From a virus: a stretch of DNA of 34,477 bases. Shown here in pieces: positions 24,419 to 34,328 of this stretch. Each line of letters starts with the position of its first letter. Position 1 is the stretch's first letter. The stretch covers positions 1-34,477 of the IMG/VR virus record IMGVR_UViG_3300042691_014218; one strand, given 5' to 3'. Both the position numbers and the translations under genes were made by a program. Below the pieces are notes generated by a model. That model ran no database searches. It was not told the DNA's origin and saw only the letters and a program-made list of their open reading frames with translations.

Positions 24419-24441
24419 TTGACCAATTGATAAACTGTCAC

Positions 24442-24469
24442 AAGGGGTCCCCCAGGACCCCTTTGTTTT
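24442..24469 (+). terminator. Intrinsic terminator after fibre gene
   Basis: AAGGGGTCC (24442-24450), loop CCCA, GGACCCCTT (24455-24463), followed by a T-rich run. A nine-pair perfect stem, the end of the late fibre transcript. Confidence 0.88.
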
Positions 24470-24473
24470 GCTG

Positions 24474-24479
24474 TATAAT
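24474..24479 (+). promoter_or_regulatory. -10-like element before helicase
   Basis: TATAAT 14 bases before ATG 24493, directly after the terminator. No -35 match is visible at 16-18 bases, and the leader would be very short. Supported mainly by its location at a transcription boundary. Confidence 0.4.
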
Positions 24480-24492
24480 AATTACATCATCA

Positions 24493-25734
24493 ATGAGTTC
24501 CATGTTCCAACTTCGCCCCCATCAGAAATCTGCTCTTGAGGCGATGCTGCTCCATGCAAAAGGTATTGTCGTTGCTCCTACAGGCGCAGGTAAGAGCATC
24601 ATCGCTATCTATGATACTATTCGCCATTTCGCTTTGGGAAACCAAACTGTGGTTGTGGTTGCTCCTAGACTGCTTCTTGCTCAGCAGTTGTGTTCTGAGT
24701 TCATGGAGCACATCACTGATGCTTCTGTAATGCATGTTCACTCTGCTAAAGACTGCAATTACTTTGCTACAACTAAACCTGATGAGATTGGCGATTGGTG
24801 TGAAAATACTCAAGGTAACAAACTGATTTTTACAACTTATAATTCTCTTCAGCGCATCGTTGACGCAGGTATTCATGTCAATGCTATCTATTTTGACGAA
24901 GCACACAATTCTGTTAAAAAATCATTTTTTGATGGCACACGCATTCTATCTAAGTATGCTAACCATTGCTATTTCTTTACTGCAACTCCGAAATATTCTT
25001 CTACTCCGAAAAAACCAGGAATGAATGATCATGAAGTTTATGGTAAGATCATCTTTAATGTTCCTGCTCCTGAACTAATTGCCAATGGTTCCATTCTTCC
25101 TCCTAAAATCAATGCTATGAATATTGGTTCTGCTCGTGATAAGGATCAGAATGCTGCTGAGAGGGATTGTATGACCCTCCTGGATACTATTCTGAATGAA
25201 GATCATATGGACAAAGTTCTTGTTGCTGCTCCTAACACCAAGGTTTTAATTCGTATGATTGCTGAGACTGATTTCATGACAGAAGTTCAGTCTTATGGTT
25301 ATGATGTTCTTTGGATCACTGCTAAGTATGGTGCATTTATCAACAACACAAAAATCAGTCGTGAAGAGTTCTTTAACAAGATCTCTGACTTTGGTAAAGA
25401 TCCTAACAAAAAGTTCATTGTCCTTCATTACTCCATCCTTAGTGAAGGTATTTCTGTGCCTGGTCTTACTTCTCTTGTTATGATGCGTCAGATGAATGTG
25501 ATTGAGATGTGTCAGTCTATCGGTCGCGTTATCCGTCTTCATCTTGATGACATCAAAGCAATTCAGAACGGTCAAATCAAGGCGGGTGACTTGAATTCAT
25601 ATACTAAATCTTTTGGTCTAATCCATGTTCCTGTTTACAGCAACACTGGTATTTCCACAGTGCGTCGTCTTCAATCTGTTGTCGATACTGTGTTTGTTGA
25701 GGGTCAACCTGCTATTTCAGTAATTAAAAAATGA
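24493..25734 (+). CDS. Superfamily 2 DNA/RNA helicase
   Basis: 413 residues from ATG 24493; frames starting upstream would run through a terminator. SF2 motifs in order: Ala-Pro-Thr-Gly-Ala-Gly-Lys-Ser (Walker A, Lys34), Val-Val-Ala-Pro-Arg (Ia), Asp-Glu-Ala-His (about 135), Phe-Thr-Ala-Thr-Pro (III), and Gln-Ser-Ile-Gly-Arg-Val-Ile-Arg (VI, about 339-346). An ATP-driven translocase or helicase for phage recombination, repair or replication. T4 UvsW is the obvious analogue but has about 500 residues with an extra N-terminal domain and different motif sequences, so equivalence is not claimed. Codon use (CGT/CGC arginine, more C-ending codons) differs sharply from the fibre gene before it. The stop overlaps the next start (ATGA). 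Confidence 0.85.
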   Translation: MSSMFQLRPHQKSALEAMLLHAKGIVVAPTGAGKSIIAIYDTIRHFALGNQTVVVVAPRLLLAQQLCSEFMEHITDASVMHVHSAKDCNYFATTKPDEIGDWCENTQGNKLIFTTYNSLQRIVDAGIHVNAIYFDEAHNSVKKSFFDGTRILSKYANHCYFFTATPKYSSTPKKPGMNDHEVYGKIIFNVPAPELIANGSILPPKINAMNIGSARDKDQNAAERDCMTLLDTILNEDHMDKVLVAAPNTKVLIRMIAETDFMTEVQSYGYDVLWITAKYGAFINNTKISREEFFNKISDFGKDPNKKFIVLHYSILSEGISVPGLTSLVMMRQMNVIEMCQSIGRVIRLHLDDIKAIQNGQIKAGDLNSYTKSFGLIHVPVYSNTGISTVRRLQSVVDTVFVEGQPAISVIKK

Positions 25735-26168
25735 AATACGAAGTTATACGAGATCAATTTTATGAGTGTTTGGATCTGACCTGGGATGTTATCAACACTC
25801 AAGTTGAAAAAGAAATTCAAAATAATACATGTAGAATTATAGGTAACGATGAAGAAAAGACTATTCTTCTTTTAGATAATGAGAATTTTCATCCAATCAT
25901 ATCTAAAATGTATGCTATAATGAGATATAAGTATCGTCTTACGACTTTACATATATACACTTCACAAAATAATGCACAGACATTTGGAAGGCATTGTGAT
26001 CAGTCAGACGTTTTAATTGTTCAATCAATAGGTAAAATGTCTTATAAATTTGATGATGGTGAATTAATCGTATTAAAACCTGGAGATGGGGTTTACATCC
26101 CAAAAGGAATGTATCATGATCCTATTCCTATCGAACCTAGAGTGTCATTAAGTTTTTCTTGGAATTAA
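25731..26168 (+). CDS. Cupin-fold metal-binding protein (JmjC/cupin-type oxygenase-like)
   Basis: 145 residues. Phe-Gly-Arg-His88-Cys-Asp90 gives an HxD pair; after a Met-Ser-Tyr-Lys-Phe strand comes Leu-Lys-Pro-Gly-Asp-Gly-Val-Tyr-Ile-Pro-Lys-Gly-Met-Tyr-His129, the second cupin motif with the third ligand, then Ser-Leu-Ser-Phe-Ser. This is a single small jelly-roll barrel, like the core of Cupin_4/JmjC-type 2OG hydroxylases, but shorter than them. A hydroxylase or a plain metal-binding cupin cannot be separated by eye. It overlaps the helicase stop and returns to AGA-type codons, beginning the small-gene run. Confidence 0.6.
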   Translation: MKYEVIRDQFYECLDLTWDVINTQVEKEIQNNTCRIIGNDEEKTILLLDNENFHPIISKMYAIMRYKYRLTTLHIYTSQNNAQTFGRHCDQSDVLIVQSIGKMSYKFDDGELIVLKPGDGVYIPKGMYHDPIPIEPRVSLSFSWN

Positions 26169-26170
26169 TT

Positions 26171-26344
26171 ATGTTAGAAGGATTTGTAACAAAAGATGGG
26201 TATGCAGCAGTACCTTTTGGAAAACAACTTATGGTTATTTACGATGGACAGCAGTTGAAAGTATGCAGAACAGAAAGTTCTGCTAGGAATTTTATTAAAA
26301 AACACTCTTCTCAACCAAAACCTGGAACTATTTTTGTACAATGA
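26171..26344 (+). CDS. Hypothetical small protein
   Basis: 57 residues from ATG 26171 (TTG 26159 would overlap the upstream gene and is less likely). A basic, compact beta-type protein with a Gly-Thr-Ile-Phe-Val end; no family recognised. The ATGATGATG run at its end starts the next gene, so the two are translationally coupled. Confidence 0.5.
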   Translation: MLEGFVTKDGYAAVPFGKQLMVIYDGQQLKVCRTESSARNFIKKHSSQPKPGTIFVQ

Positions 26345-26550
26345 TGATGAAAAAGGAAAAAACTAAATTTGTTTGTGTTTCCCCTCTTTCAAACAAAGCA
26401 CGATATCACTTTCATTTGCATATGGATAATCTCCATTCGTGCCGAGTAAAAGATGAAAAGGATGGTAAAATCTATCTTGAGTCTTTAAATAAACAGCATT
26501 ATTTTTGGATCGATAAAAACTCTGATAAAAATTGGAAAATTGAAAAATGA
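26341..26550 (+). CDS. Hypothetical small basic protein
   Basis: 69 residues, Lys-rich, with a His-Phe-His-Leu-His-Met segment (about 23-28). The start may be any of three in-register ATG codons at 26341-26349. Its stop overlaps the next ATG (ATGA). No family recognised. Confidence 0.5.
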   Translation: MMMKKEKTKFVCVSPLSNKARYHFHLHMDNLHSCRVKDEKDGKIYLESLNKQHYFWIDKNSDKNWKIEK

Positions 26551-26753
26551 AAGTTCAAACAGAAACAGATGCTCTGGTAACTATTACTGTTGACAGAGAA
26601 GGTTTAGAAACAATGATTAATGCAGCTTCTGCTGCTATTACTTATCTGAATGAATGGAATATGGGTGATGAATATGATACTGACATCACCCCTTATCATG
26701 AAATTTTATACACTCTTAAACAAAAATACGAAAGTGTCTATGGAAAATTTTAG
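26547..26753 (+). CDS. Hypothetical small acidic protein
   Basis: 68 residues, acidic, mostly helical, with Ile-Asn-Ala-Ala-Ser-Ala-Ala-Ile-Thr-Tyr in the middle. It could be a small host-takeover protein, but nothing identifies it. It overlaps both neighbours by short steps, as in a polycistronic early operon. Confidence 0.5.
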   Translation: MKVQTETDALVTITVDREGLETMINAASAAITYLNEWNMGDEYDTDITPYHEILYTLKQKYESVYGKF

Positions 26754-26943
26754 TATTGCTCGTTCTGAATTGATGCATTATAGACTGCAGGCATTCCTAA
26801 GGGAATTTAACTGCTCAGACATTGAATATATTGGGTTGCGTAATTCTGAACATTGGTATAAAATTGATGGGCATGAGGTAAATGTAAAGGATATTGAGGA
26901 ATTTGATCAAATTGATGATGATGAACAAACAGTTACTTATTAA
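26740..26943 (+). CDS. Hypothetical small acidic protein
   Basis: 67 residues from ATG 26740, overlapping the previous gene by 14 bases; the longer frame from 26650 lies mostly over the previous gene and is rejected. Strongly acidic C-terminus (Glu-Glu-Phe-Asp-Gln-Ile-Asp-Asp-Asp-Glu). No family recognised. The next gene starts inside its end. Confidence 0.5.
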   Translation: MENFSIARSELMHYRLQAFLREFNCSDIEYIGLRNSEHWYKIDGHEVNVKDIEEFDQIDDDEQTVTY

Positions 26944-27406
26944 TGATAAAAATCTAATAAATTATTTTTTAAATTTATTAGATTTTATCCAAAATTATCC
27001 TCAAGTTTATAGGGATGTGACAAACCATTGCTTGTCTCCAAACTGTTTTGCATCAAATAATCTTTTAAATCTAATAACCGATAATCAATTTGTAAATAAA
27101 ATCAACTTTATTCTGGGAGAATGTGAGAAACATATTCCAGATAAGGTTGATTATTTTTATATTCATATGGTTGACTATAAAAATGGTGGGGATATGTTAA
27201 TACATAAACATGATCACAATGAAGATTATTCGTTTATTTTATATTTGAATGACTGTGATGATGGGTATACAACTTTATATACTGATAGACCTATCAGAGT
27301 AAAACCAGAAACTGGTAAAATTCTTATATTTTCTTCTGATGTTTATCATTCAGCAACTTCTTCAAATAGTAAAAAAGTATTAGTCGGAGGATTAAAAATA
27401 AAATGA
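26915..27406 (+). CDS. Putative 2OG/Fe(II) oxygenase
   Basis: About 163 residues. The start is uncertain among three consecutive ATG codons (26915-26923), with an upstream TTG at 26894. Motifs: His-Lys-His-Asp-His (about 97-101, HxH plus possible HxD register), Tyr-Ser-Phe-Ile-Leu-Tyr-Leu-Asn, Gly-Lys-Ile-Leu-Ile-Phe-Ser-Ser-Asp-Val-Tyr-His (about 145), then Lys-Lys-Val-Leu-Val. The usual substrate-carboxylate arginine is Lys here. It belongs with the 2OG-FeII_Oxy_5-type proteins of cyanophages. The substrate is unknown. It overlaps the next oxygenase by four bases, forming a co-translated pair. Confidence 0.65.
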   Translation: MMMNKQLLINDKNLINYFLNLLDFIQNYPQVYRDVTNHCLSPNCFASNNLLNLITDNQFVNKINFILGECEKHIPDKVDYFYIHMVDYKNGGDMLIHKHDHNEDYSFILYLNDCDDGYTTLYTDRPIRVKPETGKILIFSSDVYHSATSSNSKKVLVGGLKIK

Positions 27407-28026
27407 AGAGAAAATATCCACCAGATACTAGAGAATTTACCACAATGAATTATTTTGGTAATACTTTGTATCATGCATATAATATTTTGTCGGAAGAAGA
27501 TAGACTTGGACTTTTGGAAGAAATTGAAGATGAAATAAAAACCAATTCTTCTGGTGGATATAATATTGTTGAAGCAACTAGTACTTTACCGACACGAAAA
27601 ATAAAAAATAAAAAGTGTTGGTATAATTTCTTTAAAGTTGTTAAAAAGCATCTTTATGAATATGCAAAAATAACTAATAATCCTAAAATAAAAACATTAA
27701 AAGTTGCTGAATATTGGGCAAAAAGAATGGGACCTGACATTAGTGACGAGGATTACCATAATGAGATGTACATATATTATGGTAATAGTCATTCTCATAA
27801 TAATCTTGACTTGGGTATCATATATTATTTGCAAAATCCATCTAGAATTTATGGAACTATTATGGAACAAGATGGTGTAGAATTTATTGTTCCAGGAGAT
27901 CAAAATTCTTTAATTATTCATCACCCAGATATTAATCATGAAGCAGTTCTTCCCCATCCATCATTTTTAGATGGAACTTGTAGATGTGTCCTGATAGTTG
28001 ACTTTAAATACTCTAAATATACTTAA
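27403..28026 (+). CDS. Putative 2OG/Fe(II) oxygenase, paralogue A of a duplicated pair
   Basis: 207 residues. His130-Ser-His132 starts the metal site, followed by Leu-Gly-Ile-Ile-Tyr-Tyr-Leu-Gln, Val-Pro-Gly-Asp, then Ile-Asn-His179-Glu-Ala and Arg194-Cys-Val-Leu-Ile-Val. This is the beta-helix oxygenase pattern with HxH in place of HxD. The front 42 aligned residues from Tyr-Pro-Pro-Asp-Thr-Arg onward share 33 with the gene at 29827, and the DNA is also alike, so the two arose by a fairly recent duplication. Together they flank the radical SAM cassette. Substrate unknown. Confidence 0.65.
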   Translation: MKRKYPPDTREFTTMNYFGNTLYHAYNILSEEDRLGLLEEIEDEIKTNSSGGYNIVEATSTLPTRKIKNKKCWYNFFKVVKKHLYEYAKITNNPKIKTLKVAEYWAKRMGPDISDEDYHNEMYIYYGNSHSHNNLDLGIIYYLQNPSRIYGTIMEQDGVEFIVPGDQNSLIIHHPDINHEAVLPHPSFLDGTCRCVLIVDFKYSKYT

Positions 28027-28042
28027 CTACGACAATTATCTT

Positions 28043-28204
28043 ATGGATAATGATAAATGGAATAGAGGATTGGATCTATTCATTGAAAGTGTTCATAAAC
28101 CAGATCCTGAATTGAGGCAATGTGCCCACAATCAAAAGTGCTATAATGAATTAATGTCAGTTCGTGAACATGTTCTTGAATATTTAAAAACAATAAGAAA
28201 GTGA
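28043..28204 (+). CDS. Hypothetical small protein
   Basis: 53 residues from ATG 28043; a longer frame would start inside the previous oxygenase. Helical, with Cys-Ala-His-Asn-Gln-Lys-Cys in the middle, which might bind metal but is too short to judge. It sits 16 bases after one oxygenase and one base before the next. Confidence 0.45.
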   Translation: MDNDKWNRGLDLFIESVHKPDPELRQCAHNQKCYNELMSVREHVLEYLKTIRK

Positions 28205-28205
28205 T

Positions 28206-28742
28206 ATGAAGAATTATTTTGAAGCATTTACAATACCATATTGGCAAACTAAAGTAATAGATTGGGAATACAAGAAAAAATCTTTGCTATCATTACACTA
28301 TAATAATAAACATAATATGTGTGGTGGTGATGAACAATATACTGATTATAATAGTAAGAACTCTTATCATTCTCAAGTACAATCTATTTTATTAGATGAT
28401 CTTTATTCTGCTCGTAAAGCTTTAAACTTAGAACACCATACGCTCAGAGTGACCACTGCATGGTTTCAAATGTATGAGCAATATCACCATCATCCAATTC
28501 ATAATCATGGTATAAATGGATTTAGTTCTGTTTGTTATATTGAATATGACCATAATGAACATGAACCTACAAGATTTGTATGTCCATTTAATAGTTATAT
28601 TAATAATGATATGATAGAATTTATACCGAATGATATTGAAGAAGGTTCTATAGTATTCTTTCCTAGTAATGTACCTCACTATGTCGCACCAAATAAATCA
28701 ACAAAACCTAGATTAATATTATCCTTTAATATAACTTACTAA
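28206..28742 (+). CDS. Putative 2OG/Fe(II) oxygenase
   Basis: 178 residues. A His-rich His-His-His-Pro-Ile-His99-Asn-His101 gives the HxH pair; then Gly-Phe-Ser-Ser-Val-Cys-Tyr-Ile, Gly-Ser-Ile-Val-Phe-Phe-Pro-Ser-Asn-Val-Pro-His158 and Arg169-Leu-Ile-Leu-Ser-Phe-Asn. All the expected positions for a 2OG/Fe(II) oxygenase are present. It is not closely similar to its neighbours in the N-terminal half, so it is a separate subfamily. It is followed without gap by a membrane protein and the radical SAM gene. Confidence 0.7.
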   Translation: MKNYFEAFTIPYWQTKVIDWEYKKKSLLSLHYNNKHNMCGGDEQYTDYNSKNSYHSQVQSILLDDLYSARKALNLEHHTLRVTTAWFQMYEQYHHHPIHNHGINGFSSVCYIEYDHNEHEPTRFVCPFNSYINNDMIEFIPNDIEEGSIVFFPSNVPHYVAPNKSTKPRLILSFNITY

Positions 28743-28996
28743 TGATATATACCCAACAATATATTTTTTACTTATTAGTATTTTCTTTCATCGCTTATTT
28801 TGTAGTGACAGATGAGAGTATTGCTGCATTAGTTATTTTAAGTATAAAAATTTTAAGAAATAATATAGAAAGATTAATTTGGATGATTAGATTTCATCCT
28901 TTAGTAACTACAAACAAAATTATGCAGTGGTATATGATGCGTAAATATATGAAGGAGGCAGAAAAATTGCAAAAAGAACTATTTAAAGATGATTAG
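28742..28996 (+). CDS. Small membrane protein
   Basis: 84 residues; ATG overlaps the previous stop (TAATG). Hydrophobic residues about 6-24 (Tyr-Ile-Phe-Tyr-Leu-Leu-Val-Phe) and a second weaker stretch at about 28-38 suggest one or two membrane passes, followed by a basic and then Lys/Glu-rich cytoplasmic-type helix. No family recognised. A GAAGGAGG at 28951-28957 near its end may serve as an early ribosome-binding signal for the radical SAM gene, which it overlaps by eight bases. It could anchor the neighbouring enzymes at a membrane; that is inference. Confidence 0.5.
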   Translation: MIYTQQYIFYLLVFSFIAYFVVTDESIAALVILSIKILRNNIERLIWMIRFHPLVTTNKIMQWYMMRKYMKEAEKLQKELFKDD

Positions 28997-29807
28997 AATA
29001 CCTCACGAAGTTCAGTTACACATAACACATTCATGCAATTTGACATGTGAAGGATGTACTCACTATAGTAATCATGGACATTCTGGAATGTTATCTTTGG
29101 AAGAAGGATCAGAATGGATGGATAGGTGGAATAAAAGAATAATTCCAGAAAGATTTACTATTCTTGGTGGAGAACCAGCATTGAATAAAGATCTTACTAA
29201 ATTCATTTATCTTGCAAAAGAAAAATGGCCTAATTCATATTTGGAATTAATTTCCAATGGATTTCATTTACACAAACACCCAGATCTACCAAAGGCTTTG
29301 ATTGATACCCAAACTGTTATTGGTATTTCTGTTCATTCTAGAGAACATCCAGATTACATTGAGAAATTTAAACCAGTTTATAAATTGGCAAAAAAATGGT
29401 TATTGATGGGTGTAAAGGTCGAAATGAGACATTCATCTCTTGATTGGTTAAGGCAATATCAAGGGTATGGGGATAATATGCTCCCCTATGAAGACAATAA
29501 TCCAGAATCAAGTTGGAAAAACTGTGTTTCTAGAATGTGTATACAACTACATGAAGGTAAAATCTGGAAATGTCCAGGTTTAGCGTATTTACCTATGCAA
29601 GCAGAAAAATATAATCTTTCTGAAAAATGGGATAAATATCTGAAATATGAACCATTGCATCATGATTGTTCTGATGAAGAACTTGTTGAATTTTTTAATA
29701 GGAAATGGGAAACGTACTGTGATATGTGTCCAGCAAATAAAGAACATTTCAAACCATCTGCAGATCCATTATTACCAGTTAGTTATTGGAAAAAACTCAA
29801 CAAATAA
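28989..29807 (+). CDS. Radical SAM enzyme with extra C-terminal cysteines
   Basis: 272 residues. The cluster motif Cys16-x3-Cys20-x2-Cys23 (Cys-Asn-Leu-Thr-Cys-Glu-Gly-Cys) is at the front, followed by Leu-Gly-Gly-Glu-Pro-Ala-Leu (about 58-64, the SAM-binding GGE motif). The C-terminal third holds cysteines at Cys-Val-Ser-Arg-Met-Cys, Lys-Cys-Pro-Gly, Asp-Cys, and Cys-Asp-Met-Cys-Pro, which could carry a second iron-sulphur cluster as in SPASM or Twitch proteins. The chemistry (peptide, sugar or nucleoside modification) cannot be told. It lies among five 2OG/cupin genes with overlapping starts, so a shared pathway is likely. It differs in look from the phage QueE-type enzymes. Confidence 0.8.
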   Translation: MIRIPHEVQLHITHSCNLTCEGCTHYSNHGHSGMLSLEEGSEWMDRWNKRIIPERFTILGGEPALNKDLTKFIYLAKEKWPNSYLELISNGFHLHKHPDLPKALIDTQTVIGISVHSREHPDYIEKFKPVYKLAKKWLLMGVKVEMRHSSLDWLRQYQGYGDNMLPYEDNNPESSWKNCVSRMCIQLHEGKIWKCPGLAYLPMQAEKYNLSEKWDKYLKYEPLHHDCSDEELVEFFNRKWETYCDMCPANKEHFKPSADPLLPVSYWKKLNK

Positions 29808-29826
29808 TTTCACATATTAATTTAAA

Positions 29827-30459
29827 ATGACAAAGCGTAAGAGAATATATCCACCAGATACAAGAACATTTACCACAATGAATTATTTTGGTAAGACTTT
29901 ATATCATGCATATAATGTCTTATCTGAAGAAGATATTGTAGGATTGATAGCAGAAATAGATGATGAGTTAAAAAATACTTCGGATAATAGAGATGGGTAC
30001 GTTGAAGCAACTAATTGTTTATCTGCAAGAAAAATAAAAAATAAAAAATGTTGGTATAATTTTTTTAAAATGGTGAAAACTCACCTTTATAATTATTCTG
30101 AGATAGTAAACCAACCATCAATTAAATCTTTGAAGGTTGCTTCATATTGGGCAAAAAGAATGTATAAAGGGATTACAGACGAACAATATGAAGAACAGAT
30201 GTACATTAATTATGGAAATGTTCACTCACACAATGATCTTGATTTGGGGATTATATATTACTTACAAAATCCATCTAGAATATATGGAACATTAATAGAA
30301 CATCAAGGTAGAGAGTTTATAGTTCCTGGAGATGAAAATTCTATGATTATCCATCATTCTGACATGAACCATGCCGCAGTTTTACCACCTCCAATACTAA
30401 CAAAAGATGACCCAAGATGCACTATTGTAGTAGATTTTAAATATGGACACAAATTCTGA
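29827..30459 (+). CDS. Putative 2OG/Fe(II) oxygenase, paralogue B of a duplicated pair
   Basis: 210 residues, closely related along its whole length to the gene at 27403: the same Tyr-Pro-Pro-Asp-Thr-Arg front, the same Lys-Lys-Cys-Trp-Tyr-Asn-Phe-Phe-Lys, the same His-Ser-His metal pair, Asn-Pro-Ser-Arg-Ile-Tyr-Gly-Thr, and final His and Arg positions. The main differences are in the middle (around Thr-Asp-Glu-Gln-Tyr) and near the C-terminus (Pro-Pro-Ile-Leu-Thr). All candidate catalytic residues are kept in both copies, so both may be active on different targets. It overlaps the next gene by 17 bases. Confidence 0.65.
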   Translation: MTKRKRIYPPDTRTFTTMNYFGKTLYHAYNVLSEEDIVGLIAEIDDELKNTSDNRDGYVEATNCLSARKIKNKKCWYNFFKMVKTHLYNYSEIVNQPSIKSLKVASYWAKRMYKGITDEQYEEQMYINYGNVHSHNDLDLGIIYYLQNPSRIYGTLIEHQGREFIVPGDENSMIIHHSDMNHAAVLPPPILTKDDPRCTIVVDFKYGHKF

Positions 30460-30907
30460 AAAAGAAAAAAGATTATCAGTAGTTAAAAAACAACTAGAAC
30501 ATCTTATTACCAAAATTAATAATAGATGTAACCCAGAAAATTATAACTCATTTTCTGAATTGTATGAATATGTTAAAACAACATCTACTACAGGTGTTCC
30601 ATCTTTTCTTAGTCCAGCGGAAGTTAGATTTATTCAATCAAATCCGCAGATTGAAAACAATATTTTAGATTTGTGTATTAAACAAAGAGAAAATGATAAA
30701 AAAAATAATTATTTCACAATAGGTAATATTTTAGATATTCTTTTGTTTACTAATAATTCTAATGATCTTTATAATTCAAAAATGACTGGTTTTAATAATC
30801 CTGACTTAGGTACTAGATTTTTGAAAGATCCTTCTTCACAACCAATACATGGGACTATAGAAGAAGTATTGGTCATGTTAGATTTGAGTATTGTTCCTTA
30901 TAGATGA
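30443..30907 (+). CDS. Hypothetical protein
   Basis: 154 residues, ATG inside the end of the preceding oxygenase. Helical front (Glu-Lys-Glu-Lys-Arg-Leu-Ser-Val-Val-Lys-Lys), Asn-rich middle, and no catalytic motif that I recognise. It is the last gene of the oxygenase run: a perfect hairpin begins at its stop codon and a new promoter-like element follows. Confidence 0.5.
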   Translation: MDTNSEKEKRLSVVKKQLEHLITKINNRCNPENYNSFSELYEYVKTTSTTGVPSFLSPAEVRFIQSNPQIENNILDLCIKQRENDKKNNYFTIGNILDILLFTNNSNDLYNSKMTGFNNPDLGTRFLKDPSSQPIHGTIEEVLVMLDLSIVPYR

Positions 30908-30930
30908 TAGACACTTTCGCAAGTGTCTAT
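30907..30930 (+). terminator. Ten-pair hairpin at operon boundary
   Basis: ATAGACACTT (30907-30916), loop TCGC, AAGTGTCTAT (30921-30930). Perfectly paired and beginning at the stop of the upstream gene, but with no T run after it, so it may be an RNA end-stabiliser or processing site rather than an intrinsic terminator. Confidence 0.45.
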
Positions 30931-30955
30931 GGATATGGTTTCAAAGTCTATTATG

Positions 30956-30964
30956 TGCTATACT
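30956..30964 (+). promoter_or_regulatory. Extended -10 promoter before RNA ligase
   Basis: TGC-TATACT at 30956-30964; no good -35. Transcription from about 30971 would leave ATG 30986 as first in-frame start, which agrees with the length of T4 RNA ligase 1. Confidence 0.45.
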
Positions 30965-30985
30965 ATGATTAATTACAGAATTGAA

Positions 30986-32155
30986 ATGTTGAACTATCAA
31001 TTTCCACAAATCAATAATATTTCCGATATTATTTGTCATATTGATGGTAGGGATGAATATAAAGTAAGTGTGAAAGACTGGTATACTGTTGTTAATTATG
31101 CAGTTGCTTTTGAGGATACATTTAAATGGGATGATGCTGATCAAATTGGATCTAAAATTCGTAGAGAATGTCGTGGTCTGATCTTTGATACTGAAACTGG
31201 GAAAATCATTTCTCGTCCGTATCATAAGTTCTTCAACGTTGGTGAGCGAGAAGAAACTGCTATCAACAAAGTTAATCTGTATGAACCTCATGTAGTTCTG
31301 GAGAAACTGGATGGTTCTATGATCCGTCCGATTCCTACTAAAGAAGGTTTTCGTCTTGGGACTAAAGCAGGCATTACTGATGTAGCAATGAACGCAGAAG
31401 TGTTTATCGCAGATAAACCAGAGTATCGTGAGTTCATTCTTGCTATGCTTGATGGTGGAATGACACCCATTTTTGAATGGTGTTCGCGTAAAAATCGTAT
31501 TGTTGTAGATTATCCTGATGATCAACTGATTCTCACTGGGGTTCGTAATACATTTAAGGGAACTTATCTTCTTCACTGGAACTTGGAAGAGTTTGGTGAA
31601 CACTATGGTATTCCTGTTGTAAAAGCAGTGGATGGTCTTGCTGTTCAAGATATTAACCTGTTTGTCAAGCAGGTTCGGGAATGGGATGATGGTGAGGGTA
31701 TTGTGCTACGATTTGACGATGGGCACATGGTTAAAGTGAAAGCGGATGAATATGTGCTCCGTCACAAATCGAAAGAACAAATTAGTCAAGAAAAAAATGT
31801 TCTTCAAATTATCATCAATGATTCTGTTGATGATATTGTCCCCTTATTGACACAAAATGATGCAACTCGTCTTAAAGAGTTTCAGACTGCTTTTTGGGCA
31901 TCTGTAGATGATTTGGCATATGAGATGGCACAGATCTATTTGGGTGGCAATACAGTGTATCCTGATAAGAAAGATTTTGCTGTTGAGTTTGTTCAGAAGA
32001 AGATTTTACCAATTCATGCTCCGATCATGTATGCTATGAAAGGTGGCAAGGGTTCCCGTGCTACCATTGTTGACATGATTAGTAAATCCTTGACTACTCA
32101 AACTAAAATTGATCAAAATCGTTGGTTATGGGGAGGTCTTGAATGGAATTCTTAA
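30986..32155 (+). CDS. rnlA: RNA ligase, T4 Rnl1 family
   Basis: 389 residues from ATG 30986; earlier in-frame starts at 30923, 30929 and 30935 fall in the hairpin or before the promoter. Nucleotidyltransferase motif I is Leu-Glu-Lys107-Leu-Asp-Gly-Ser (T4 Rnl1 Lys99). Upstream, Arg-Glu-Cys-Arg-Gly-Leu-Ile-Phe and Ser-Arg-Pro-Tyr-His-Lys-Phe-Phe-Asn match the Rnl1 family. Later come Phe-Glu-Trp-Cys (motif IIIa), Glu-Gly-Ile-Val-Leu (IV) and Val-Lys-Val-Lys (V). T4 is 374 residues. The enzyme seals RNA 3'-OH and 5'-phosphate ends, in T4 to mend tRNAs cut by host anticodon nucleases. The kinase and phosphatase it needs are 0.5-1.6 kb downstream. Codon use is richer in CGT than in the oxygenase genes before it. 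Confidence 0.85.
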   Translation: MLNYQFPQINNISDIICHIDGRDEYKVSVKDWYTVVNYAVAFEDTFKWDDADQIGSKIRRECRGLIFDTETGKIISRPYHKFFNVGEREETAINKVNLYEPHVVLEKLDGSMIRPIPTKEGFRLGTKAGITDVAMNAEVFIADKPEYREFILAMLDGGMTPIFEWCSRKNRIVVDYPDDQLILTGVRNTFKGTYLLHWNLEEFGEHYGIPVVKAVDGLAVQDINLFVKQVREWDDGEGIVLRFDDGHMVKVKADEYVLRHKSKEQISQEKNVLQIIINDSVDDIVPLLTQNDATRLKEFQTAFWASVDDLAYEMAQIYLGGNTVYPDKKDFAVEFVQKKILPIHAPIMYAMKGGKGSRATIVDMISKSLTTQTKIDQNRWLWGGLEWNS

Positions 32156-32183
32156 TAGATAGAATGTAGAGTAAATTAATTCA

Positions 32184-32660
32184 ATGGATCATCTAAAAAT
32201 TGAATCCTACAAAACAATTTTAGTTCTTAATTCTAGTTATGAACCAATAAATTTTACTAATTGGAAGAGAGCGGTTGTATTGTTATTAAAAGAGAAAGCG
32301 CAAATATTATCATCTAGAGTAATACGTTTATTGAATTATGTAAAGTTACCATTAAAAAAAATTATGGACGAAAAACCTTCACGAGCAATGATTTACAAAA
32401 GGGATAACCATACCTGTCAATATTGTGGATCGAAAAAATCACTTACTATTGATCATGTTATTCCTAAATCTAAAGGTGGACAAGATACATGGGAAAATAT
32501 GGTAGTTGCTTGTGCGCCATGTAATACTAAAAAAGGGCATACTTTACTTGAGCAAACTGGAATGAAATTGGTTAGGAAACCAAAAGCACCTCCAAATAAG
32601 ATGATTTTAGATATTGATAAATCTAATGTTCCAGAATGGAAAGAATATAACTATGTCTGA
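32184..32660 (+). CDS. Free-standing HNH endonuclease, cyanobacterial/cyanophage type
   Basis: 158 residues. The front (Leu-Val-Leu-Asn-Ser-Ser-Tyr-Glu-Pro-Ile-Asn) followed by Asn-Trp-Lys-Arg-Ala-Val-Val-Leu-Leu is shared by a common cyanobacterial HNH family. The nuclease core has Cys78-x2-Cys81, Asp90-His91, Asn105 and Cys110-x2-Cys113, so the zinc and catalytic positions are intact. AGA/AAA-rich codons differ from the neighbouring ligase and kinase, which suggests insertion into the repair operon. It may be a homing enzyme, or it may act on host DNA. The C-terminal eight bases overlap the kinase start. Confidence 0.88.
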   Translation: MDHLKIESYKTILVLNSSYEPINFTNWKRAVVLLLKEKAQILSSRVIRLLNYVKLPLKKIMDEKPSRAMIYKRDNHTCQYCGSKKSLTIDHVIPKSKGGQDTWENMVVACAPCNTKKGHTLLEQTGMKLVRKPKAPPNKMILDIDKSNVPEWKEYNYV

Positions 32661-33129
32661 ACTTATTATGCTATGTGGAATTCCTACTTCTGGAAAATCC
32701 ACATATGTTGAAAAACTGAAGAAACTGGACTACTGGAAAGATGCAGTAGTTCTTTCTACTGACAATTACATTGAGAAACAAGCACAACGTCTTGGACTGA
32801 CTTATAATCAGGTCTTTGATGATGTAATCAAAGATGCTACACGGGAACTTGAAATGGAGTTCAACTGGTCAAAATCTAAGGGTAGGAACATCATCTGGGA
32901 TCAGACAAACTTATCGGTCAAGACCCGAAAGAAAAAACTTTCTAAACTTCCTTCCATCTATAAGAGAGGTGTGGTATACTTTACTGTATCACTTGAGGAC
33001 GCACTGGAACGAAACAACCACCGTGAGGGAAAGTTTATTCCTGAAAGCATCTTAAAAAGGATGTACGAACAGTTTGCAATTCCAACTATTGAAGAGGGTT
33101 TTGATTATGTTGAAAAAGTTGAAAGTTAA
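32653..33129 (+). CDS. Polynucleotide 5'-kinase, T4 Pnkp N-terminal-domain type
   Basis: 158 residues from ATG 32653 (in-frame codons upstream lie inside the HNH gene). P-loop Gly9-Ile-Pro-Thr-Ser-Gly-Lys15-Ser16-Thr, the same numbering as Lys15/Ser16 of T4 Pnkp. Then Ser-Thr-Asp37-Asn-Tyr (T4 Asp35), Asp-Gln-Thr-Asn-Leu (T4 Asp-Thr-Asn-Leu) and Arg-Asn-Asn-His-Arg...Ile-Pro-Glu-Ser-Ile-Leu-Lys-Arg-Met-Tyr (lid region). T4 Arg38 corresponds to a non-basic residue here. The T4 enzyme has 301 residues with a phosphatase half; this protein stops after the kinase half. It would put 5'-phosphate on broken RNA or DNA for the nearby ligase. Confidence 0.8.
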   Translation: MSELIMLCGIPTSGKSTYVEKLKKLDYWKDAVVLSTDNYIEKQAQRLGLTYNQVFDDVIKDATRELEMEFNWSKSKGRNIIWDQTNLSVKTRKKKLSKLPSIYKRGVVYFTVSLEDALERNNHREGKFIPESILKRMYEQFAIPTIEEGFDYVEKVES

Positions 33130-33334
33130 AGAACCTTACAATCATCACTTTGAGTATCAGAGCGACATTGATCGCATCGTAAAAATCTTTGCCGATCGTG
33201 GTTATGAGATTTCACATTCTGATGCTGTTCGTGCGTGGGAACAATTCTCTGATGGTATGGCAGCAGGTTGGATGAGTTTAGGTTCTGATGCTGAGGTTTT
33301 TGATGATGCTTTTTATTATTTTGAGGAAGTATAA
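33107..33334 (+). CDS. Hypothetical small protein between kinase and phosphatase
   Basis: 75 residues from ATG 33107, eight bases after GAGGG; it overlaps the kinase end by 23 bases and the phosphatase start by one base. A Glu/Asp-rich C-terminal helix, and Asp-Ala-Val-Arg-Ala-Trp-Glu-Gln-Phe-Ser-Asp-Gly in the middle. No family recognised. It is inserted exactly at the place where T4 Pnkp joins its two domains, so it may be a spacer gene or a partner of one half. Confidence 0.55.
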   Translation: MLKKLKVKEPYNHHFEYQSDIDRIVKIFADRGYEISHSDAVRAWEQFSDGMAAGWMSLGSDAEVFDDAFYYFEEV

Positions 33335-33777
33335 TGAAACCGAGTTGTTATGTTTTTGATCTTGATGGTACTATTTGTAACGTCAAGCATCGCCGTCAGT
33401 ATGTTGCCACTAAACCTCGCAACTGGGATGCCTGGAACGCTGGACTTGTGAATGATAAACCAAATGAAGCGGTTCTTGGAATTATTCATTCTCTCACATA
33501 TTATTATCCGATTTTTATTGTTAGTGGAAGGTCTGATGATTACAGAGTTCAAACCGAAGAATGGTTAGAAAAGCATGGTATTTCTTATAATGCTTTGTAT
33601 ATGAGAAAATATAAGGATCATCGTGATGATGCTGTAGTTAAGGCAGAAATTGCAGATGAAATTGATAAAACTCATCATATTATTGGTGTTTTTGATGATC
33701 GAAAGAGAGTTGTTGATATGTGGATTAATAGAGGTATATGGGTTTTTGATGTTGGACAGGGCAAAGGTGAGTTTTAG
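33334..33777 (+). CDS. HAD-family 3'-phosphatase, T4 Pnkp C-terminal-domain type
   Basis: 147 residues. Phe-Asp9-Leu-Asp11-Gly-Thr (HAD motif I; T4 Asp165/Asp167), Val-Ser-Gly-Arg (motif II; T4 Ser211-Gly-Arg), Arg-Asp-Asp-Ala-Val-Val-Lys (motif III) and Phe-Asp-Asp-Arg...Val-Val-Asp-Met-Trp (motif IV; T4 Asp277/278, Val-Val-Glu-Met-Trp) match in order. It would remove 3'-phosphate or 2',3'-cyclic phosphate from cleaved RNA. With the kinase, it makes up a Pnkp split over two genes. Start ATG overlaps the previous TAA. Confidence 0.8.
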   Translation: MKPSCYVFDLDGTICNVKHRRQYVATKPRNWDAWNAGLVNDKPNEAVLGIIHSLTYYYPIFIVSGRSDDYRVQTEEWLEKHGISYNALYMRKYKDHRDDAVVKAEIADEIDKTHHIIGVFDDRKRVVDMWINRGIWVFDVGQGKGEF

Positions 33778-33779
33778 TT

Positions 33780-34328
33780 ATGTCTTATATTAAGTTAAAA
33801 GATAAATTTTTTGTAGGTAAATATGATATAATTTCTAGAAAATATCAGTATGGATTAAATACACCTAATGGATTTTATGGAATAAAATATTCATATATTG
33901 ATCTTTCAAATTCCAATGAACTTCTTCAAGTAATACCCGAACACCATAGAGACAAATGTACATTGTCTGTGATGGATTTAAATCATAGAATTCCACCACA
34001 CACTGACAGTGGCATTGAAGCAATTATTAATTTCTACATAAAAACTGATAATTGTAAAACTCAATTTTATAAGTTTAAAACTTCAGATCCTAAAGAATTT
34101 AAATTACCAACACAAAGAGATGGATCTATTTTTGATGAAAATGATCTGGATGAAACAGAAAGTTTTATTTCTCAAGTTGGCGATGCGTATCTTTTAGACG
34201 TATCGCAACCTCATGCTGTTATTCCACTGCATGATGGACCTGTTGATAGGAAAGCAATTTGTCTTCAGTTGCTTTACACTACTTTTTCTGAAGCAAAACA
34301 ACTCTTAAAACAAACTAATCAAATTTGA
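33780..34328 (+). CDS. Putative 2OG/Fe(II) oxygenase with canonical HxD
   Basis: 182 residues. Pro-His74-Thr-Asp76 is a true HxD, followed by a Phe-Tyr-Ile strand, Gly-Asp-Ala-Tyr-Leu-Leu-Asp, then Gln-Pro-His145 and Arg157-Lys-Ala-Ile-Cys-Leu. All four expected residues are present, which makes it the most canonical of the oxygenases in this window. It does not resemble the others closely. It directly follows the RNA-repair genes; no link to RNA repair is visible. Codon use is AGA-rich again. Start two bases after the phosphatase stop. Confidence 0.7.
   Translation: MSYIKLKDKFFVGKYDIISRKYQYGLNTPNGFYGIKYSYIDLSNSNELLQVIPEHHRDKCTLSVMDLNHRIPPHTDSGIEAIINFYIKTDNCKTQFYKFKTSDPKEFKLPTQRDGSIFDENDLDETESFISQVGDAYLLDVSQPHAVIPLHDGPVDRKAICLQLLYTTFSEAKQLLKQTNQI

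Follow-up and report, generated by a model that had tools for sequence, protein, structure and literature searches.

Cyanophages carry many 2-oxoglutarate (2OG) oxygenases whose purpose is unknown, and the question raised by the locus described here is what a group of such enzymes, encoded side by side with a radical S-adenosylmethionine (SAM) enzyme, may act on. The analysed window is the whole stretch of 34,477 bases of an IMG/VR virus record (IMGVR_UViG_3300042691_014218). Its positions 25731-30459 hold a gene cassette coding for a cupin (A), four 2OG-type oxygenases (F, G, I, and L), a membrane-type protein (J), and a radical SAM enzyme of 272 amino acids (K). Together with several small genes, these genes overlap or abut on the + strand, bordered by a UvsW-type helicase gene on the left and an RNA ligase gene (30923-32155) on the right. 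A sequence-only reading of this DNA had described about 5 kb of overlapping genes with this content, which the open reading frames and profile matches bore out, but its count of four oxygenases is corrected by S, a fifth 2OG-like gene that is also a member of the set in relatives. Our favoured explanation, held with moderate confidence, is that T4-like cyanophages use the cassette as a module for the oxidative tailoring of a sugar.

The radical SAM enzyme K

All of 32 relatives of K share seven cysteines with it (C16, C20, C23, C179, C195, C244, and C247), which bears out the extra cysteines of the sequence-only reading. The first three form the CX3CX2C motif of the SAM cluster, and the match to PF04055 lies above the cut-off. 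The other four are arranged as C179-x10-G190-x4-C195 and C244-x2-C247, with G190 retained in 29 of the 32 relatives. This sequence motif, for which cluster binding is predicted, fits the SPASM/twitch pattern CX9-15GX4C...CX2C (PMC6231123).

The structure model of K has a predicted local distance difference test (pLDDT) score of 94.2; its radical SAM core begins at about residue 2, and core and twitch together take up the whole chain. The top solved structure was SpeY (Z 22.2 over 245 residues, 2.9 Å; Foldseek E 2.7e-12), whose entries 7wzv, 7wzx, and 7x0b are titled as a twitch radical SAM dehydrogenase, followed by SuiB (Z 13.4) and BtrN (Z 12.7). By structure comparison, the twitch fold of K is nearest to that of a sugar/cyclitol dehydrogenase, SpeY, which acts on a sugar alcohol in spectinomycin biosynthesis. 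BtrN turns an aminocyclitol alcohol into a ketone, a reaction in which its auxiliary cluster is proposed to accept electrons, and holds its SAM cluster by C16, C20, and C23 (PMC9012708), the very residue numbers found in K. On its motifs and predicted fold, K is a twitch-type radical SAM enzyme with one predicted auxiliary cluster. A plausible active site in a structure model had been named earlier as a point on which the proposal would stand or fall, and the motif is intact within a confidently modelled twitch fold.

Two other identities were rejected. The viperin model was the top NCBIfam match of K, but at 44 bits it fell far under the curated cut-off of 180, which speaks against the viperin/ddhCTP antiviral enzyme. 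The core of MoaA is similar, but only three cysteines ligate its auxiliary cluster (PMC9012708), as opposed to the four invariant cysteines here.

The oxygenase partner and the recurrence of the cassette

G and L are paralogues (67-68% identical) that have no Pfam match and match phrog_81 weakly. The model of L (pLDDT 84.9) reaches Z scores of 13-15 with 2OG enzymes, its structural neighbours including 3bvc (Z 15.1), P3H1 (14.8), SnoN (14.4), and OGFOD1 (14.0), and shows the double-stranded beta-helix fold of the 2OG superfamily. Invariant in the family are HxH (residues 133/135), H182, and R197, the HxH standing in place of the usual HxD. The G/L family is predicted to comprise oxygenases of 2OG fold, which may bind iron and 2OG. 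The replacement of HxD by HxH is conserved in G, I, and L alike. The cupin A has a conserved HxD...H...R motif.

A profile scan of viral contigs retrieved 76 radical SAM loci, 75 of them with a usable radical SAM gene, which were reduced to 40 by dereplication at 95% radical SAM identity. The gene order of the window was seen again in many further viral contigs, and the cassette was found in about 20 dereplicated cyanophage-type lineages. In the arrangement to which the window belongs (context I), uvsW is followed by the small genes, F, H, I, a first radical SAM gene (rSAM-1), the G/L oxygenase, an HNH gene, and S, and beyond these by another 2OG gene, a second radical SAM gene (rSAM-2), a carbamoyltransferase gene, and collar-fibre-like genes. 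The order of B, C, D, and E (clusters 20, 15, 16, and 30) between uvsW and F is conserved. In 16 dereplicated cases the radical SAM gene is directly followed by a member of the G/L family, and in 11 it is preceded by I; F (cluster 9) and S (cluster 5) each occur in 18 of the 40 loci, relatives placing S shortly before the second radical SAM gene.

When the G/L oxygenase alone was used as query, 46 loci were found, 44 of which have a radical SAM gene within 6 kb, although these are not 44 independent events because many of the contigs are near-copies. This linkage upholds the earlier proposal of a multi-step modification set with consistent partners of the radical SAM enzyme. The G/L proteins of the two remaining loci are 65-70% identical and lie beside genes reading as oxygenases, a SPASM radical SAM protein, or a halogenase. 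In one locus without a radical SAM gene (L176, 723-2306), a gene reading as tryptophan halogenase stands by several 2OG-like genes and a G/L-type oxygenase.

In the radical SAM tree, rSAM-1 and rSAM-2 formed supported clades (100/99 and 100/100) that were sisters at 92/94. The G/L oxygenase follows the K-type enzymes (clade 1), and a carbamoyltransferase of the TobZ/NovN/NodU type follows the sister clade (clade 2). Neighbour labels clustered on the tree far beyond shuffles, a clustering that near-copies favour. A second arrangement (context II) combines the radical SAM gene with genes for an amidinotransferase (14/40 loci), a DegT-type protein (11/40), and GT25-like proteins (10/40). The DegT-type protein of the context II loci L004, L005, L006, L010, L058-L060, L066-L068, L076, and L079 is only about 196 amino acids long, about half the normal length.

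The isolate comparison covered 50,697 phage records, 416 of which (cyanophage-type) carry a UvsW homologue at E 1e-60. K matched only Synechococcus phage S-SCSM2R (46%) and one single-cell record (30%), G/L gave one weak match, again in S-SCSM2R, S was found in two records, both of roseophages, and F had zero matches. A (42 records), I (77), C (17), and H (450) are commoner, and nearly all of the records with C have no radical SAM gene; A, present in 42 isolates, is therefore not specific to the cassette, nor is H a specific partner of the radical SAM gene. Independent occurrence of the genes had been named earlier as a finding that would speak against a joint system; it holds for A, I, H, and C, but hardly for F, G/L, S, and K. 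The set thus consists of a core (K, G/L, F, and S) and of common cyanophage genes. Work on cultured phages would miss this core, a family almost absent from isolated phage records. Comparison with loci L003, L012, and L013 gave ratios of non-synonymous to synonymous substitutions (dN/dS) of 0.047-0.195 for K, G, L, I, and J, which are under purifying selection.

Candidate substrate and rival explanations

From gene content, linkage, motifs, and predicted fold we infer a reaction of K, an order of steps, and a substrate as follows. K would be a twitch radical SAM dehydrogenase. Cleavage of SAM at its N-terminal [4Fe-4S] cluster (C16/C20/C23) would produce the 5'-deoxyadenosyl radical, which would abstract a hydrogen at an alcohol carbon in a sugar or cyclitol; with the second electron passing to the auxiliary cluster (C179/C195/C244/C247), the product would be a ketone. 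The same sugar could be hydroxylated, epimerised, or oxidised by the neighbouring 2OG oxygenases L, G, F, I, and S, and a hydroxyl might be capped by the TobZ/NovN/NodU-type carbamoyltransferase, whose gene lies further downstream. Because the cassette is flanked by the long tail-fibre-type gene on one side and by collar-fibre-like genes on the other, the sugar, once finished, would probably be placed on the adhesin of the virion or on the glycan of the host surface to which this adhesin binds, and this location suggests the adhesin or its receptor as the site of the sugar. An antibiotic-sugar-type radical SAM enzyme with a fixed oxygenase partner near tail fibres would give some cyanophage 2OG oxygenases a testable purpose, namely to decorate, by oxidation, a sugar that takes part in defence or in recognition of the host.

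Several neighbours are consistent with sugar chemistry. The cassette runs past the window, and a longer contig of the same phage encodes a second radical SAM enzyme, a SPASM radical SAM protein, and a carbamoyltransferase. The last (474 amino acids) lies about 16 kb downstream of K, and much closer in relatives; its nearest named solved structures are novobiocin carbamoyltransferase, GdmN, and TobZ. Four other cassette-bearing context I contigs encode an ADP-heptose kinase homologue, and the one that was profiled additionally encodes, next to the kinase, the adenylyltransferase and the 6-epimerase of the ADP-heptose set, together with a capsule-type phosphatase, a cupin, and carbamoyltransferases; the scores of its heptose enzymes lie below the equivalog cut-offs of NCBIfam. 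StrB1 (1bwd, E 7e-59) is the nearest match to the amidinotransferase of context II, and this context looks like guanidino-sugar synthesis in phages. Several cellular homologues adjoin genes reading as glycosyltransferases, though not always.

Side observations on these neighbours concern the carbamoyltransferases and the SPASM proteins. At L011 (6528-8005), a carbamoyltransferase-like protein appears, as read from sequence, to be encoded in two pieces, with the gene for the C-terminal piece coming first, next to a radical SAM gene of 30% identity, and several tandem genes reading as P-loop, sulfotransferase-like paralogues surround the carbamoyltransferase gene of the window phage (L088, 205-8479). 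L001 (16531-17730) encodes a radical SAM protein of 399 amino acids with a SPASM domain ahead of the radical SAM core (NF033640, above cut-off), and another protein of similar layout is encoded downstream at L088 (14469-15755).

Several points weigh against a sugar-tailoring module. The identity between K and SpeY is only 18%, and the chemistry of this radical SAM group cannot be deduced from the fold alone (PMC6231123). The bacterial neighbours vary, and some of them are not sugar genes. No glycosyltransferase or nucleoside diphosphate (NDP)-sugar gene was found within the cassette itself, and no ADP-heptose kinase in the window phage's own (partial) contigs. The second radical SAM gene of this phage is inverted and groups with the amidinotransferase-associated (context II) clade, and a search that had no positive control found no amidinotransferase in the window phage or in context I contigs. 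A more specific version of the reading is possible but doubtful: an old duplicated pair of SpeY-like radical SAM sugar dehydrogenases, one working with its own 2OG oxygenase and the other with a carbamoyltransferase, would build an oxidised, carbamoylated adhesin sugar not described before, while related phages would combine the same radical SAM family with a StrB1-like amidinotransferase and a DegT-type protein to make guanidino-sugars. If true, viruses would perform aminoglycoside-type sugar chemistry.

The sugar product could instead alter the lipopolysaccharide (LPS) or exopolysaccharide of the host and block superinfection rather than decorate the virion. Cyanophages carry LPS clusters (PMC3037559), capsule decoration has been proposed for a related cluster (PMC7824862), and the ADP-heptose genes on cassette-bearing contigs point the same way; yet the cassette is flanked by tail-fibre-type and collar-fibre-like genes and is not part of an LPS cluster, and we regard modification of the host envelope as unlikely. 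Production of a diffusible carbamoylated secondary metabolite during infection, aminocyclitol- or antibiotic-like, appears less likely still. Its parts would be those resembling SpeY (spectinomycin), BtrN (butirosin), TobZ/NovN (tobramycin/novobiocin), and, in the other branch, StrB1 (streptomycin), and such a product was offered as an alternative in PMC7824862, whereas no export or resistance gene was noted, no cyclitol synthase was seen, and the cassette sits in the tail-fibre region.

A small co-translated protein had also been suggested as a peptide substrate. K and the oxygenases would then form a system like those for ribosomally synthesised and post-translationally modified peptides, a reading for which the co-directional genes B-E and H, the frequent role of SPASM/twitch enzymes as peptide maturases, and the presence of SuiB and SkfB among the structural matches of K could be cited. 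However, K consists of core and twitch only (residues 1-252 aligned) and has no N-terminal peptide-recognition (RRE) domain of the SkfB/SuiB type, stand-alone RRE proteins not having been searched; moreover, other branches keep the radical SAM gene in contexts without these small genes. Since isolates that have no radical SAM gene also conserve H and C (450 and 17 records, as against two with a K-type enzyme; B, D, and E were not searched there), the peptide was given up as the leading idea. A peptide substrate, and with it a system of this kind, is quite unlikely. Hypermodification of DNA or nucleosides is the least probable of all, even though other systems have 2OG enzymes that modify phage DNA and viperin heads the NCBIfam matches of K, given its sub-threshold score, the four invariant auxiliary-cluster cysteines of the K family, the lead of SpeY far above viperin in the fold comparison, and profile searches of the cassette that matched no TET/JBP-type or thymidine-modification family.

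Gene layout and comparison with known systems

The features of the locus are listed in Table 1. The C-terminal end of the tail-fibre-type protein appears, by eye, like an intramolecular chaperone. J is confined to close relatives of the window (BLAST cluster 78, four loci only).

Table 1. Genes of the cassette and its surroundings in the window.
Feature	Position	Strand	Basis and remarks
Long tail-fibre-type protein, 1961 amino acids	18533..24418	+	Directly upstream of uvsW; read from sequence, clusters with structural open reading frames upstream of relatives' uvsW
UvsW-type DNA helicase	24427..25734	+	Left border of cassette; ResIII/DEAD/Helicase_C, phrog_16
A: cupin / JmjC_2-like	25731..26168	+	PF08007 E 3.5e-12, phrog_4992
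B, C, D, E: small proteins, 57, 69, 68, ~63 amino acids	26171..26943	+	phrog_33194, phrog_1653, phrog_2020
F: 2OG-Fe(II) oxygenase	26915..27406 (start uncertain, 26894-26921)	+	PF13640 E 8e-6
G: predicted 2OG-fold oxygenase, cassette-specific G/L family	27403..28026	+	Paralogy to L, invariant HxH...H...R, fold of L
H: small protein common to cyanophages	28043..28204	+	phrog_495
I: 2OG-Fe(II) oxygenase	28206..28742	+	PF13759 E 3e-11, phrog_81 E 1e-31
J: small hydrophobic/membrane-type protein	28742..28996	+	phrog_3344; membrane nature as read from sequence
K: twitch-domain radical SAM enzyme, SpeY/BtrN-like	28989..29807	+	PF04055 E 3e-11
L: predicted 2OG-fold oxygenase, downstream partner of K	29827..30459	+	Neighbourhood, predicted fold
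M: conserved protein after L	30443..30907	+	Weak phrog_27690; cluster 79
S: 2OG-type oxygenase-like	33780..34328	+	No Pfam match; conserved HxD...H...R

Positions 30923-33777 of the window hold a split RNA-repair set consisting of an Rnl1-type RNA ligase, an HNH protein, a P-loop kinase (32614-33129), and a PNKP-type phosphatase (33334-33777), kinase and phosphatase being separate genes and not one fused kinase-phosphatase. The late-promoter motif TAAATA is not enriched in the window (47 observed vs 74 expected) and is therefore uninformative on the timing of the cassette. One contig (L092, PAHT02000089.1), filed as a metagenome-assembled genome of Rhodobacteraceae, carries the full cassette and a UvsW-like gene and seems to be phage DNA that was assigned to a bacterial bin.

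Among characterised enzymes, SpeY shares with K the twitch radical SAM fold, and an alignment shows a C-x14-GX4C stretch in SpeY, whereas K, at 18% identity, is encoded in a phage beside 2OG oxygenases and tail genes, outside any antibiotic cluster. BtrN has in common with K the size class, C16/C20/C23, and a single four-cysteine auxiliary cluster, but its identity to K is 16% and its structural score (Z 12.7) far below that of SpeY. The closest annotated isolate, S-SCSM2R (PQ898602), encodes the 46% identical radical SAM enzyme and a weak G/L-type match, with several annotated 2OG oxygenases nearby; there, however, the radical SAM gene lies beside genes for glycosyltransferases, an inosamine amidinotransferase, and a DegT-type protein, and the G/L match is far away.

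The sequence-only reading had found that no named pathway fits, which was too strong, since Iyer et al. (2021; PMC7824862) predicted a related cyanophage cluster of carbamoyltransferase, 2OG, cupin, and halogenase genes (S-SSM6a) for capsule decoration or a secondary metabolite; the radical SAM part of the claim of novelty stands. Content of that type is present here, with 2OG enzymes and a cupin in the window and the carbamoyltransferase downstream in the same phage; no halogenase or HemK-like methylase was noticed among the cassette genes, no search having been aimed at either. At the level of gene content, both clusters share phage-borne carbamoyltransferases, 2OG oxygenases, and cupins read as decorating a sugar or metabolite. 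The present one differs in having, next to genes for tail fibres, a radical SAM enzyme that is paired with its own oxygenase, and the term radical SAM is absent from the main text of PMC7824862. What is new relative to the cluster of Iyer et al. is the radical SAM enzyme, together with the oxygenase that is its constant partner.

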